Of a stretch of 46,437 nucleotides of DNA, positions 277 through 44,026 are shown piece by piece. The notes below the pieces were generated by a model. It had not been told where the DNA came from. It saw nothing but the letters and a program-made list of their open reading frames with translations, and made no database searches. This DNA comes from a virus: IMG/VR virus record IMGVR_UViG_3300031884_000041, positions 1 through 46,437 of that record; one strand, 5' to 3'. Positions within the stretch are counted from its first letter, which is position 1. Each line of letters opens with the position of its first letter. Made by a program: the position numbers and the translations under genes.

Positions 277-306
277 AGTATAGCGGATTTATTGGGCAAA
301 GGTCAA
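277..306 (-). promoter_or_regulatory. sigma70-type promoter for gp47
   Basis: On the minus strand TTGACC (301-306) is followed by 18 bases and TATACT (277-282). The -35 box overlaps the gp55 stop codon. The expected start near 270 leaves a short leader containing the AGGAG ribosome site. An AATAAATC stretch inside the spacer resembles a weak late element but lacks the final A. Confidence 0.6.
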
Positions 307-1223
307 GCCTCTTCTCCGCCATCTTCAATAGGATCCTCTTCGCTCTTTGGCATTCTGAAGTTTTTATATAGTGATGCTTGTCTAGCAGTCTCTTCGGCAT
401 GTTCTGCTTGTGTCTGACGTGTAAGACTTGGCATTAAACCGTTTTCTTGTAACATGTCGTCTCGAATGTTTTGATTTTTCTTTTCGATATTCAATACACG
501 AGTAAATGAATTAGTAACTGCAGCCGTATAGTAAGCAAATGGGTTTTCTGATTTTGATTCATCAAACTGTAGACCAATTTGACTTAACTGTAGGATAGCC
601 TGTCCTCGCATTTCTTCGATATAGGTATAACCACGCCAATTTGAACGCTGTGCGTAACGTTCTGAAAGTTTGATAAACATTTTACCTAAGTTTTCTGTAA
701 TGCGTCCGTGGTCTTTGCTAAAATGTCCTTTAACCAAGTCACCTTTCCAATGGCTCTTACCTACACATATAAGTTCGTCATTCTCGTCAAACTTCCAATG
801 TTGGAAAGGTGGAAAATTTACCTTATCATGAGAATCTGCTCTACTTTTAACTGTTTTCTTACGACCCGGAGCCAGTGGAATATGATCAAAAGTCATAATA
901 CGAATAATAACATCTGTCTTAGCAATAGTTGTATAGTCTTTTGTACACTCTGCTAATTTAATTTTCTTATCGCCTGCGGCCCTTGCGGCGTTAAATGCTT
1001 CGAGTCCTTGGCGCTTTGCTCGATTGCGTTTGGCTTCTGCTATAGTTCGGATGTTAATCTTATCCAAACTTGTTAGAATAATGTCATGTTGACTGTATTC
1101 TTTTTTGGTAAAACTCGAAAATGAGTTTTTTGATTTGTGTATCTCTGCTAATAAATCTCTGTTATTTAGGTATCTTACCTTCCTACCCGGTGTTGGGGTT
1201 GCTGTCATATTGTCTATAGCCAT
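303..1223 (-). CDS. gp55: Late-transcription sigma factor gp55, long form
   Basis: This 306-residue protein carries a sigma region-2-like block at about 185-258, including NWRGYTYIEEMRGQA, FDESKSENPFAYYT and FTRVLNIEKKNQNIRDDM. The DPEKSDNPFAYFT-type motif is the hallmark of T4 gp55, which directs host RNA polymerase to TATAAATA late promoters. T4 gp55 is about 185 residues. Here a basic N-terminal region of about 180 residues (VRYLNNRDLLAEIHKSK at 17-33) precedes the sigma block. The C-terminus is acidic (SEEDPIEDGGEEA) and lacks an obvious hydrophobic clamp-binding tail. AAGGAGG at 1234-1240 sits 10 bases before the ATG. It has its own sigma70 promoter, as expected for a regulator made before late transcription. 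ATAAATA elements in this window are its likely targets. Confidence 0.9.
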   Translation of the reverse strand: MAIDNMTATPTPGRKVRYLNNRDLLAEIHKSKNSFSSFTKKEYSQHDIILTSLDKINIRTIAEAKRNRAKRQGLEAFNAARAAGDKKIKLAECTKDYTTIAKTDVIIRIMTFDHIPLAPGRKKTVKSRADSHDKVNFPPFQHWKFDENDELICVGKSHWKGDLVKGHFSKDHGRITENLGKMFIKLSERYAQRSNWRGYTYIEEMRGQAILQLSQIGLQFDESKSENPFAYYTAAVTNSFTRVLNIEKKNQNIRDDMLQENGLMPSLTRQTQAEHAEETARQASLYKNFRMPKSEEDPIEDGGEEA

Positions 1224-9138: not shown

Positions 9139-9145
9139 ATAAATA
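9139..9145 (+). promoter_or_regulatory. Late promoter element for gp6
   Basis: ATAAATA, preceded by C, ends 24 bases before the gp6 ATG. It lies in the 52-base gap after gp25, one of the few gaps in the virion block. Transcription would be expected to start about 6-7 bases further on, within or just past the 5' arm of the adjacent hairpin. Confidence 0.6.
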
Positions 9146-9146
9146 C

Positions 9147-9167
9147 GCTATCAAAAGGTTAGATAGC
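9147..9167 (+). promoter_or_regulatory. Hairpin with the gp6 ribosome site in its loop
   Basis: GCTATC (9147-9152) pairs perfectly with GATAGC (9162-9167). The loop AAAAGGTTA holds the AAGG ribosome site, and the 3' arm ends two bases before the ATG at 9170. In transcripts reading through from upstream the stem can form and mask the site. In transcripts starting at the late promoter most of the 5' arm should be missing. Confidence 0.5.
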
Positions 9168-9169
9168 AA

Positions 9170-12100
9170 ATGATACCATCAACAAACAAAAAACTTTTAG
9201 TTGCTGAAGATTGGACAAAACTGTACCAGAGTTTTAAGAACGCCGACTTCAAATCGTACGATTTCGACACACTTCGTCGTACAATGATCAGTTATCTAAG
9301 AGAAAATTATCCAGAGGACTTTAATGATTATCTTGATTCAAGCGAATATATTGCTCTCATTGACCTTATTGCTTATCTTGGCCAAAATTTAAGTTTCCGT
9401 GTTGACTTAAATGCTCGTGAAAATTTCTTAGAAACTGCTCAACGTCGTGATAGTATTCTTCAACTTGCGTATCTAATTAATTACAATCCTGCTAGAAACT
9501 CAGCGGCTAGCGGTTTATTAAAAATTACAGCAGTTACAACAACAGACAATGTATTAGATGCTAATGGTATTAATTTAGGTAATACTCCTATTGCGTGGAA
9601 CGATCCTTCTAATTCAGAGTGGTATCAACAGTTTGTTTCTATTATTAACTCTACAATGCCAGGATCAATGATATTTGGCGCACCGTCGGCTAAAAGTTCA
9701 ATTTCCGGAATAGATACAGAACAATATATTATTAATTCAACTAATTCTGATATTCCGACATTTGGATTTAATACACCAGTAAACGGTACAACTATGGATT
9801 TTGAAGTAGTTGGAAGTACATTTGCTGGACAAAATTATGTTTACGAAACTCCTCCAATCCCTGGTGGAAATTTTACATTCTTGTTTCAAAATGATAACAA
9901 GGGCAGTGGTTCTTCTAATACAGGATTCTTTGTTAGTTTCCGTCAAGGTGTAACACAGTCTAGTGCTTTTTCAATTGATGTTCCTGTCGAAAATCAAGTT
10001 GTAAGTGTAAATTCAAATAATATTAACAATAATGATATCTGGTTATGGCAACTAGATTCTAACAATAATTTTACAACTTTATGGAAACAAGTTCCTTCCC
10101 TAGTAGGTAATAATGTTATATATAATAGTTTAAGTAACAGTGAAAGAAATATCTATGCTGTAATTACTAGAGCAGGCGACCAAGTTGATTTTAATTTTGC
10201 TGATGGTAATTTTGGCGATCTACCTAAAGGCACATTCATTGCTTATTATAGAACAAGCAACGGTTTAAGTTATTCTATAACACCTGATCAGATGACCGGT
10301 ATTCAAATTAATATTCCTTATTTGAATAAATCTGGTCAGCCACAAACGCTTACCTTAAACGCAAGTTTACAATATACTGTTGACAATAGTAGCGGATCAG
10401 AATCTAATGAAAGCATAAAATTAAAAGCGCCACAGACTTTCTATGCACAAAATAGAATGGTAACAGGAGAAGATTATAATATTTCTCCATTAGGTGCTGG
10501 AACAGATATTCTTAAAGTTAAAAGTGTTAATAGAACAGCCAGTGGAATTTCTAAATATTTTGAATTAACAGACGTAAGCGGTCAGTACTCTAGTACAAAT
10601 ATTTTTGCTACAGATGGATTAATTTACAAAAATACTCAAGACAACACTCTAACATTTAATTTTACAACACGTAATCAGATATATGCTGAACTTCAGGGAT
10701 CTATTGCCACTATTGTAGCATCTAACGGATTAAGAAATTTTTATTGGGATAATTGGCCAAGACCTGACGCAAGTCAATTAAGCGTTACTTGGAAACAAAT
10801 AACAAATCAAACAGGTCAATGTACAGGATATTTTGTTTCAAATTCAACTCCTCAACAAGTTGGATATTTTAGTTCTAATACATTACAATATGTTGGAACT
10901 GGTGCTTTGGTTAAATTTAATGCCGCTGCCGGCCAAGTATTTTATAATGGAAGAATGTTAAATTCTTCTAATGCTCCTGCTGGGTCACCTAATTATATCT
11001 GGGCAAAAGTTTCTAATGTAATCGGTGATGGTGCTAATAGCGGTAAAGGTAGCCTATCAAATGGCCAAGGCCCTATTGTATTAAGTGGAACTATTCCTTC
11101 TGGCGCAATGGTATCTGAAATTATTCCAGAATTCGTAAGTGTTTGGAATTATAATCTTAACACAACCATTGTTAATATTACTGTTACAAATAGAAATTTT
11201 GCTTTAAGTTTTGATCGTTCAACACGTCAATGGTTTGTAATTACAGAAACAAATCTTAATCTATTCTCTGATTTTAGTCTATTGTACCAAGGTGATACAA
11301 CAAATCAAAATAGAGACGCAAGTTGGTTAATTGCGTTCGAGTGGGACGGACAAGAATATATTGTTCATTATAGAACAACAGAATACATTTTTGAAAGCGT
11401 CGAACAAACGGCTTTCTATTTTGACAACACACAGAACAAATATGATTTTGTGAACAACACAGTTATTAAAGATCAAATCAATGTTTTAGGGATCAATGCC
11501 CAAGCAACAAATTCTGGAGCCGGCATAGGTGTTGATCAGTTATGGGAAATTGATGATGTTGTTATTGAACCAGATGGATATCAAGATCCTTCTAAAGTAA
11601 AGATTAGTTTCTTTGATGCTCAAAATAATGGACAAATATCTGATCCAGATAGTTTTGAAACAATAGTTCAAACAACTACTACATCTGTACTATCGGACAC
11701 CTACGGATACAATGATAAGTTTGTTTATTTTACTGTTTCTTCTAATGGACTTTCTTATGTTCCATTAGATATTACTACAACAAACTTTTCACAAATTGAG
11801 GCATATCCTACAGAAGATAAAGTTTCAAATCCTTCAACTTCTACATTGTATTATTTTTATGATCCTAGCATTAACGTAGTAAAATCTTATTCTACTGTTA
11901 CAAATGAATTTAATTTAGAAAATAGTTATATTGCGTTTCCTGGAAGAAATAATTTAAAATTTCATTACCAACATAACAGCGCAGATGATCGCAGATTAGA
12001 TCCTAGCAAGACTAACATCGTGGATATCTATTTGTTAACAAGTGAATATGATACCGCATATAGATCATGGCTAGCAACAGGAATTGGTAGCAAACCATTA

Positions 12101-28214: not shown

Positions 28215-28221
28215 ATAAATA
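28215..28221 (+). promoter_or_regulatory. Late promoter element upstream of the 28227 gene
   Basis: ATAAATA (preceded by A) lies just after the collagen-like gene. It is only 5 bases before the first ATG of the next gene, so a transcript from it would start at or after that ATG. It would then serve an internal ATG at 28248 (residue 8) or the downstream fibre genes. Confidence 0.4.
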
Positions 28222-28226
28222 GCACT

Positions 28227-28883
28227 ATGAATACAGACGAGAATAAAATGCCACAACAACCAAAACCAACTCCTCAGATGGGCGATGTAGGGGGTGTAAA
28301 ACTCCAAGGTCACATCAAAATTTTTGATCCTGAAACAAAAGAAGTCTTTGTAGATAAGCGAAATGCTATTCATTACGAAAATTTTAGTATTGCTTTAGTA
28401 CAAAGTATTGGTAACTTGGGTCAAGGATTTATATCTGAAATGGCATTTGGTAACGGTGGCACACGTATTGATCCTACAGGAATTATTACATATCTAACTC
28501 CTAATACATTAGGCGTTAATAGCCAGTTATACAATCAAACATATTACAAAAACGTCGATGCTCAAAGCGTTAATGACTTAGATCCTTCTCGCAATTACAT
28601 GGAATATCGTCATGTTTCGGGAGCAACATATTCAGATTTATTGGTTAGTTGTTTGTTAGATTTTGGAGAACCTAGCGGACAACTAGCATTTGATACAGGA
28701 ACTAATCTTTCAAATGATTTTATTTTTGATGAAATTGGTTTAAAAGCGTATAGTCCTGTTGGTGCTAATATGGGTTCACTATTAACTCATGTTATTTTTC
28801 ACCCTGTGCAGAAATCATTAAACCGTTTAATTCAAATTGATTACACAATTAGAATTCAAAGTATTAGCGGAACTGGAGCCTAA
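28227..28883 (+). CDS. Conserved phage virion protein of unknown role
   Basis: The 218 residues begin with a Pro/Gln-rich lead. A compact, apparently single-domain body follows, with GHIKIFDPETKEVFVDKRNA, IHYENFSIALVQSIG, EMAFGNGGTRIDPTGIITYL, a central YMEYRHVSGATY, NDFIFDEIGLKAYSP and a C-terminal strand LNRLIQIDYTIRIQSI. I recognise the pattern as recurring beside fibre genes in marine T4-like phages but know no tested function. It could be a connector between baseplate and fibres (T4 gp8-gp10 zone). Two starts are possible: the ATG at 28227, behind a weak AAAG, or ATG at 28248, which suits the late element at 28215-28221. It ends four bases before the first of the four paralogous fibres. 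Confidence 0.55.
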   Translation: MNTDENKMPQQPKPTPQMGDVGGVKLQGHIKIFDPETKEVFVDKRNAIHYENFSIALVQSIGNLGQGFISEMAFGNGGTRIDPTGIITYLTPNTLGVNSQLYNQTYYKNVDAQSVNDLDPSRNYMEYRHVSGATYSDLLVSCLLDFGEPSGQLAFDTGTNLSNDFIFDEIGLKAYSPVGANMGSLLTHVIFHPVQKSLNRLIQIDYTIRIQSISGTGA

Positions 28884-43065: not shown

Positions 43066-43490
43066 TCGGTTTTTTTAAGATTATTTTGTTGTTGTTTTAA
43101 CGCAACACTCTTAGCACGAGCAAGTCCAAATTTTTGGATATTGCCGGAAAAAAGAATTAATTGGACAGCCATACTACTGTCAAATAGTTTGATATTTTTG
43201 TGGGTAAGATAATATGGGCAGTCTACGTACTTGTCTAACCAAAGAAATGTTTGGTTTGTAAACTCTATATCTTCTGGAAGGTCTACAGAAAACTCTTCTA
43301 AATCTAATTTACGTAGTGCTTCGTATCCTTCGGAACTCAATCGCATACCGCCGGTTCTTTTTGCTCTAGGGTTTAACCACCAAAGCATATGATACTTTTT
43401 GATCTCGCTGATATCCAACCCTAATTTTTCAATTAGGCCGTTTGTTATGATCTCTCTACGAGTCGGTCGGTATTTGGGTTTTCTCGCCAT
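43062..43490 (-). CDS. Unknown basic protein, 142 residues
   Basis: The family is not recognised. The N-terminus is strongly basic (ARKPKYRPTRREIITNGL). A compact body follows with YHMLWWLNPRAKRTGGMRLS, then a helix-rich part SSEGYEALRKLDL. The C-terminal section holds DKYVDCPYYLTHKNIKLFDS and VQLILFSGNIQKFGLARAKS. The protein looks like a small soluble nucleic-acid-associated protein. It starts within the last 35 bases of the 99-residue gene in another frame and has no visible ribosome site, so translation probably depends on ribosomes finishing that gene. Confidence 0.6.
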   Translation of the reverse strand: MARKPKYRPTRREIITNGLIEKLGLDISEIKKYHMLWWLNPRAKRTGGMRLSSEGYEALRKLDLEEFSVDLPEDIEFTNQTFLWLDKYVDCPYYLTHKNIKLFDSSMAVQLILFSGNIQKFGLARAKSVALKQQQNNLKKTD

Positions 43491-43755
43491 TTGTTAACTT
43501 ATAAACTGAAAAGTCTGTACAGTTGTATAGTTTATTTAATTTTTCAGCAAGATTGAAAGCGTGTCCCGAATTTGAAAAACTTACTTTCTTGTATTTTGGA
43601 CCAAGGTCTTGTGCTACAACAGAAGTAGTTTTTAAATTAACAGGCTTGTCCTTATAGAAAACAGCCCAAATGGCTTCGGCTTCAAGCACTTGCTCGACTT
43701 TGTAATTTTTCTTATTTGTAACTTCTAACAAAATGTTTGGCTTTGGTCGACTCAT
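43456..43755 (-). CDS. Unknown small protein, 99 residues
   Basis: This alpha/beta protein reads NILLEVTNKKNYKVEQVLEA, EAIWAVFYKDKPVNLKT, KYKKVSFSNSGHAFNLAEKL and NCTDFSVYKLTNGEKTQIPT. I do not recognise a tested family. It ends in TAG, the only amber stop found among the genes here. The ATG is preceded by GGAG in the loop of a hairpin and by a late promoter element at 43786-43792, so late-only translation is suggested. The following 142-residue gene overlaps its end by 35 bases. Confidence 0.6.
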   Translation of the reverse strand: MSRPKPNILLEVTNKKNYKVEQVLEAEAIWAVFYKDKPVNLKTTSVVAQDLGPKYKKVSFSNSGHAFNLAEKLNKLYNCTDFSVYKLTNGEKTQIPTDS

Positions 43756-43757
43756 TT

Positions 43758-43786
43758 ATCTACGCACTCCGGTTATGTACGTAGAT
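43758..43786 (-). promoter_or_regulatory. Hairpin with the ribosome site of the 99-residue gene in its loop
   Basis: On the minus strand ATCTACG (43780-43786) pairs perfectly with CGTAGAT (43758-43764). The 15-base loop holds GGAG. The 3' arm ends two bases before the ATG at 43755, the same spacing as the gp6 hairpin. The 5' arm begins at the last base of the late promoter element, so late transcripts would lack most of it. Confidence 0.55.
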
Positions 43787-43792
43787 ATTTAT
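43786..43792 (-). promoter_or_regulatory. Late promoter element for the 43755 and 43490 genes
   Basis: ATAAATA on the minus strand (preceded by A) lies in the 43-base gap after the 75-residue gene, 30 bases before the ATG at 43755. Confidence 0.55.
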
Positions 43793-43798
43793 TTCAAA

Positions 43799-44026
43799 TC
43801 ACTTAAAACTGCCCCCGTCCATTTCGATGGTAACAATGTCTTGTGTTGGTGTTGATGCTATTTGTTTGTCTAATTTGCCTGCTAGACGTGTCATAACAAC
43901 AGCAAGACTATCGCTAAGTGAAATGACGTCTTTTATGTCGAGATTAAGAGTCTTTTGGCCAGATTTAGTTGCGATTCTGGCCTTTTCTAAGAACATTTCG
44001 ATAGGTAATGTGTTCAATGGTTTCAT
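43799..44026 (-). CDS. Unknown small helical protein, 75 residues
   Basis: The protein is mainly helical (LPIEMFLEKARIATKSGQKT, then LDIKDVISLSDSLAVVMTRL, AGKLDKQIAS) and ends in the short strand TIEMDGGSFK. No known family is recognised. Its ATG overlaps the stop of the upstream gene as ATGA, which is strong support for a real, translationally coupled gene. It closes the operon that starts at or before queE. Confidence 0.62.
   Translation of the reverse strand: MKPLNTLPIEMFLEKARIATKSGQKTLNLDIKDVISLSDSLAVVMTRLAGKLDKQIASTPTQDIVTIEMDGGSFK

Follow-up and report, generated by a model that had tools for sequence, protein, structure and literature searches.

A predicted late-promoter hairpin switch upstream of a conserved 99-residue gene of T4-like jumbo phages

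We identified an RNA hairpin joined to a late promoter in the leader of a gene encoding a conserved 99-residue protein of jumbo phages, and we consider it likely that this leader acts in cis to time expression, as a switch of the type described for the T4 genes e, soc and I-TevI. The window, by which we mean the whole stretch of DNA that was analysed, is a 46.4-kb IMG/VR virus record whose source is a T4-like jumbo myovirus. The T4-type switch is known, and the putative instance at the 99-residue gene is both new and well supported. From the promoter, the hairpin, its conservation with compensatory changes, and the upstream gene, all of which are read from the sequence, we infer the start site, the inhibition of read-through mRNA and the late expression of the gene.

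Structure of the leader and its predicted start site

On the minus strand, positions 43793 to 43753 carry, in order, AATAAATA, TCTACGTACATAACCGGAGTGCGTAGATAA and ATG (Table 1). The end of the predicted promoter overlaps the 5' arm of the hairpin by the first two bases of that arm. The two arms form a stem of 11 base pairs, including one G-U pair, that is closed by a 9-nt loop (-13.9 kcal/mol by folding) and terminates one base 5' of the ATG. The first-pass annotation had noted at 43792-43755 an ATAAATA box, a perfect stem of 7 bp that begins on the final base of the box, two A residues and the ATG; all of these are present, the stem being ATCTACG/CGTAGAT. The seven pairs are correct, but they are too short a description of the stem, since they belong to the 11-bp helix with its one G-U pair. 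That annotation had also placed GGAG in the loop; GGA is indeed there, but the last G pairs in the inner part of the extended stem, and the spacer between the Shine-Dalgarno sequence and the start codon is paired as well. The leader resembles the T4 class in that its hairpin, situated at the ribosome-binding site, has a late promoter in or directly adjoining the 5' arm. Copies of ATAAATA are depleted in the window, with 7 seen and 27 expected from shuffles, and most of them sit just 5' of genes, as expected of a late promoter box. An Rfam search returned no family above the gathering score; its sole match was sub-threshold, attributable to chance and located elsewhere.

Table 1. Coordinates of the leader elements, the adjoining genes and related loci in the window
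Feature	Position	Strand	Basis
gp55-like late sigma factor gene, whose product would read the late promoter	303..1223	-	PHROG 12791, E 9.8e-85
gp6 leader: ATAAATA, stem GCTATC/GATAGC around AAAAGGTTA, ATG at 9170	9139..9166	+	Sequence
99-residue gene	43456..43755	-	ORF; relatives in at least hundreds of viral contigs among the matches listed
Hairpin 3' arm GTGCGTAGATA, occupying the Shine-Dalgarno-ATG spacer	43757..43767	-	Fold; compensatory changes in relatives
Shine-Dalgarno GGAG, 11 nt 5' of ATG	43767..43770	-	Sequence
Hairpin loop ATAACCGGA, 9 nt, containing GGA of the Shine-Dalgarno	43768..43776	-	Sequence and fold
Hairpin 5' arm TATCTACGTAC	43777..43787	-	Folding; arm-swap and 5'-arm-shuffle controls
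Predicted late transcription start, G	43780	-	T4 rule; sixth base after TAAATA, within the 5' arm
Predicted late promoter AATAAATA (T4 consensus TATAAATA)	43786..43793	-	Sequence; gp55-like gene in the window
Upstream 75-residue gene, same strand, candidate source of read-through mRNA	43799..44026	-	ORF

In T4 late promoters TATAAATA spans positions -13 to -6 (PMC1524935), which would put the start at G43780 in this leader, six bases beyond TAAATA. Our main set consists of 107 distinct leaders, among the matches listed, that have TAAATA and precede a protein of at least 65% identity. A purine occupies the sixth position after TAAATA in 106 of these 107 leaders (G in 99), and the nucleotide that follows it is a pyrimidine in 97%. 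The sixth position is also a purine in 93% of the more distant leaders among the matches listed, most of which have no hairpin. The preference is less sharp at promoter-like sites genome-wide, probably because many of these sites are not promoters. Judged by this pattern, the late start most likely lies within the 5' arm.

A TATAAATA-like box at -13 to -6 relative to the putative start, in a phage that encodes its own late sigma factor, is what a gp55-dependent late promoter would be expected to present. Like the T4 promoters read by gp55, the leaders have AATAAATA, or more generally [A/C]TAAATA, and a purine as the sixth nucleotide beyond it, and a gp55-like gene is present. Unlike the T4 consensus, the first base of the box varies, with A or C common. 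Such a variable first base has been noted in the late promoters of other T4-like phages (PMC1524935).

The stability of the hairpin depends on the seven bases 5' of the predicted start. The local minimum free energy is -9.1 for the real sequence, -3.1 when these seven bases are shuffled, and -1.6 for the late transcript. In the 5'-arm-shuffle folding control, 96 of the 107 leaders among the matches listed fall individually in the top 5%. We gave no weight to how accessible the start region is predicted to be, since this accessibility rises in the late transcripts of hairpin-less leaders too (from 0.40 in the full to 0.63 in the late transcript, versus 0.30 to 0.57).

Conservation and covariation among relatives

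Relatives were drawn from IMG/VR by similarity to the 99-residue protein alone, so the leaders themselves were not selected. TAAATA occurs just 5' of the start in all of the best 80 relatives, which represent 37 distinct leaders, and after two further scans there were at least 162 distinct upstream regions among the matches listed. Nearly all relatives among these matches, down to about 50% protein identity, have TAAATA 14-40 nt 5' of the start. A strong hairpin (stem score of at least 14) is kept in 91 of the 107 leaders of the main set, again among the matches listed. Below about 60% identity, in the same body of matches, TAAATA stays and the stem is mostly lost or replaced, which implies that the gene is not always dependent on the hairpin. 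Named relatives of the window include PA5oct, Phosso, Atu_ph07 and SCTP-2. The first three, all in the group below 60% identity, have the promoter without a strong stem, and SCTP-2 has neither promoter nor stem close to the start of the 99-residue gene. Two distant cases (L215 and L248, at about 1440-1500) present a larger hairpin 5' of the gene that pairs the promoter box itself; the 81-nt stretch concerned is very stable in both, at -34 and -30 kcal/mol, respectively.

The hairpin is kept by pairing rather than by sequence. In leaders at or above 65% identity among the matches listed, the score of the leader's own stem is 17.6, against 11.9 (sd 0.29) if arms are exchanged at random across the whole set and 15.0 if they are exchanged with those of the five nearest relatives by protein. 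In the first 37 leaders the own stem scored 18.1 and swapped arms 11.6 (sd 0.57; maximum of 1000 shuffles 13.5). Leaders below 65% identity among the matches listed show little gap between own and swapped arms (9.1 versus 7.5). Compensatory changes, which had been suggested as a check on the structure, were found both between close leaders and in an alignment of 22 leaders. Close leaders differ by two-sided changes from A-U to G-C (L353/L269 and L031/L053) and from C-G to U-A (L078/L080). In the 22-leader alignment 99.3% of the cells pair and 13 cells are changed on both sides, values that none of 500 shuffles reached; the number of pairs with a two-sided change is itself not unusual, because only two positions vary in this way. 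Loop length ranges from 4 to 17 nt among the leaders, and L026, L031, L075 and L363 have unrelated stems. Part of the similarity is sequence conservation, since the arms share a GCGTA/TACGC core, which recurs together with a TTGGAG loop in many leaders, and the gap between own and swapped arms is narrower for the nearest-relative swap.

The proposed switch and competing explanations

A gene on the same strand ends close upstream of the leader in 105 of 106 cases among the matches listed, at a median of 9 nt 5' of TAAATA, and in 105 of 106 there is no terminator-like T6 run between this frame and TAAATA. The upstream gene adjoins the leader, and it appears to be placed so as to deliver read-through transcripts into it; any of its transcripts that continues must carry the hairpin. 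We propose that such transcripts, which would carry both arms, fold into the hairpin, with the Shine-Dalgarno sequence held in the loop and the spacer filled up to the AUG, so that the 30S subunit could not bind both and the gene would be silent. Once the gp55-like sigma factor is active, the late promoter AATAAATA would start transcripts at G43780, inside the 5' arm. These would lack the outer 7 of the 11 base pairs, and with GGAG and the AUG accessible they would be translated. The Shine-Dalgarno sequence is mostly in the loop, unlike that of T4 e, which is in the stem, and repression may therefore be weaker here. The earlier suggestion of late-only translation is well supported as a prediction for the 99-residue gene, by the architecture, the covariation, the purine start and the upstream gene, but it would not be the point of the hairpin at gp6, where the genes upstream are baseplate genes.

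The 99-residue protein has no match in Pfam, PHROG, NCBIfam or PDB. Its AlphaFold model is a confident small alpha/beta structure (pLDDT 88) that has no PDB fold match at E <= 0.001 and two structural matches in BFVD, both of them uncharacterised phage proteins. The gene block that contains it also holds a PHROG 107 exonuclease-like gene and an ATPase gene. Genes of these sorts are expressed early or middle in T4, and by analogy the block would be early or middle in timing.

In the leaders of T4 e, soc, 49, I-TevI and segB, and of Aeh1 mobE, read-through mRNA folds and is not translated, and the late mRNA, which is without the 5' arm, is translated (PMC3014915; PMC2988022). A scan of T4 with the same design as ours recovers e, soc and I-TevI. 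In T4 e, which encodes lysozyme, the late promoter lies within the region encoding the 5' strand of the inhibitory hairpin (PMC3014915). The leader described here shares that embedded promoter, with read-through RNA that would fold and late mRNA that would lack the 5' strand. However, in T4 e the Shine-Dalgarno sequence is inside the 3' arm (TAGGAGGTA) rather than mainly in the loop, and the gene is different and the sequence unrelated. T4 soc is the closest counterpart, because most of its Shine-Dalgarno sequence is likewise in the loop; in both the promoter is upstream and the 3' arm reaches the start codon, although the soc stem pairs the AUG itself, whereas ours stops one base short, and the gene again differs. 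The hairpins of I-TevI, I-TevII, I-TevIII, segB and Aeh1 mobE are present on early or middle read-through transcripts and missing from late ones (PMC2988022). The promoter of the 99-residue gene is similarly placed, such that late transcripts would lack the hairpin; those genes encode homing endonucleases, whereas here the product is a small conserved jumbo-phage protein.

Instead of silencing the gene outright, the hairpin could tie translation of read-through mRNA to ribosomes finishing the upstream gene. The position of the upstream stop in 105 relatives speaks for such coupling: at the median distance given above it is some 13 nt short of the 5' arm, close to where the edge of a terminating ribosome would be. 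Coupling alone, however, explains neither the T4 precedents nor why nearly every relative joins a late promoter and a purine start to the 5' arm, and we think it unlikely. The location of the hairpin at the gene's own start site, with a core and loop that recur, would also suit an RNA operator bound by a phage protein, perhaps the 99-residue protein itself in autoregulation like that of T4 gp43. This is quite improbable, given that stems and loops vary widely and include unrelated ones, that pairing and not sequence is kept, and that the side of the stem that varies is the one late transcripts would lose.

T4 RegB cleaves the GGAG of early mRNAs (PMC3014915), and GGAG is present in 64 of the 107 leaders at or above 65% identity among the matches listed, as would suit a cleavage site for a RegB-like RNase; alternatively, the inverted repeat could act in DNA. 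An explanation of either kind is highly improbable: the palindromes are variable, which argues against a sequence-specific DNA factor, and a search for RegB homologs in ten phage records gave no match, with the controls equally silent, so that absence does not follow. As to a chance inverted repeat beside a late promoter, such a stem arises by chance at roughly 1% of sites, whether promoter-start pairs or ATGs that lack a promoter, and chance likely accounts for the case at 1315-1335 and some other sites. For the 99-residue gene this account is already refuted and deserves virtually no credence, as 91 of the 107 leaders keep the stem and the swap controls are far exceeded. The first-pass annotation had considered chance less likely, and for this leader that judgement is borne out by the arm-swap, base-shuffle and 5'-arm-shuffle controls, all of which are exceeded.

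The e/soc/I-TevI switch has been documented in T4 and its close relatives, and the timing switch that we propose would extend it to giant phages, with deep comparative support, at one conserved gene. The covariation in these leaders is also strong comparative material for a mechanism whose support has come mainly from single cases. Such gating would indicate selection against making the 99-residue protein early. A fuller version of this reading strikes us as unlikely: a hallmark protein of a large clade of jumbo phages, damaging or mistimed if made early, would be kept off until late in infection by a hairpin constrained in its pairing across about a hundred leaders, and the stop-to-stem spacing may add coupling, giving a two-input switch. 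We know of no description in T4 of a two-input switch that combines a hairpin with coupling to upstream translation.

Similar arrangements at other genes

The window also encodes baseplate genes and gp6, and the leader of gp6 had been described as having the same order of elements. Its hairpin is real, with a 6-bp stem, but besides near relatives only one independent case has it. The near relatives include a compensated form in L087, gp6 of G003 has an unrelated stem, and most relatives at 45% identity have no such hairpin. A weaker 5-bp instance that had been reported at 1315-1335 exists, but it is not conserved, and relatives keep TAAATA without the stem.

The scan for such arrangements covered five jumbo genomes together with PA5oct and T4, and arm swapping served as its control. 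The 99-residue gene is found behind TAAATA in all five jumbo genomes and has a strong stem in four; the G007 leader has a bulged stem with a lower score. At other genes a stem was present at 10 of 357 promoter-start pairs, versus 3.3 expected by arm swapping, and none of 200 shuffles reached 10. PA5oct has 6 among 118 promoter-start pairs, versus 1.7 expected, and two of these six overlap. The enrichment over the arm-swap control is thus small and real, but it concerns only a few genes per genome, and we rejected as weakly supported the earlier proposal of a genome-wide device.

Further stem-bearing genes encode a GH19-type endolysin (G001), a pectate-lyase-like tail spike (G002) and gp6 (G003). 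The G001 endolysin hairpin was rejected as a conserved case because it is not shared by the 80 nearest endolysins, L371 excepted. The leader of the L371 endolysin (about 1440-1500) has an 11-bp perfect stem, AAAATCTCCTA/TAGGAGATTTT, that is unrelated to that of G001; it encloses the late-promoter box and hides AGGAG, and would apply the same logic at a lysis gene. Recurrence at an endolysin involves a kind of gene that is gated likewise in T4. In G002 a gene for a multihaem cytochrome c7-like protein with CXXCH motifs (L160:9840-10649) has a late-promoter box and a 7-bp stem, and in the jumbo phage G004 a gene for a CsgF-like secreted protein (L197:17977-18456) has an 11-bp promoter-hairpin leader.

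A family of 143-residue orphan proteins in G002, G003 and G004 was rejected as a further conserved case, since the promoter and TAGGTATATA are conserved and the stem only partly so. In L450-L458 (about 1420-1500) the leaders of this family consist of a strong terminator, a late-promoter box and a conserved GTAGGTATATA, followed by the ATG, and the Shine-Dalgarno sequence is within the 3' arm of the partly conserved stem.

Two other promoter-like sites in the window are of a different kind. At 1293-1313, in the interval that separates the gp55-like gene from a structural gene, a minus-strand ATAAATA stands back to back with a plus-strand TAAATA, at a distance of about 8 nt. Relatives keep this pair of boxes, and a late promoter of its own may drive the late sigma gene. 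At 28215-28250 a late-promoter box is separated by 5 nt from the ATG at 28227, which would be the very first codon of a transcript started 6 nt on; translation may therefore really begin at the in-frame ATG at 28248.
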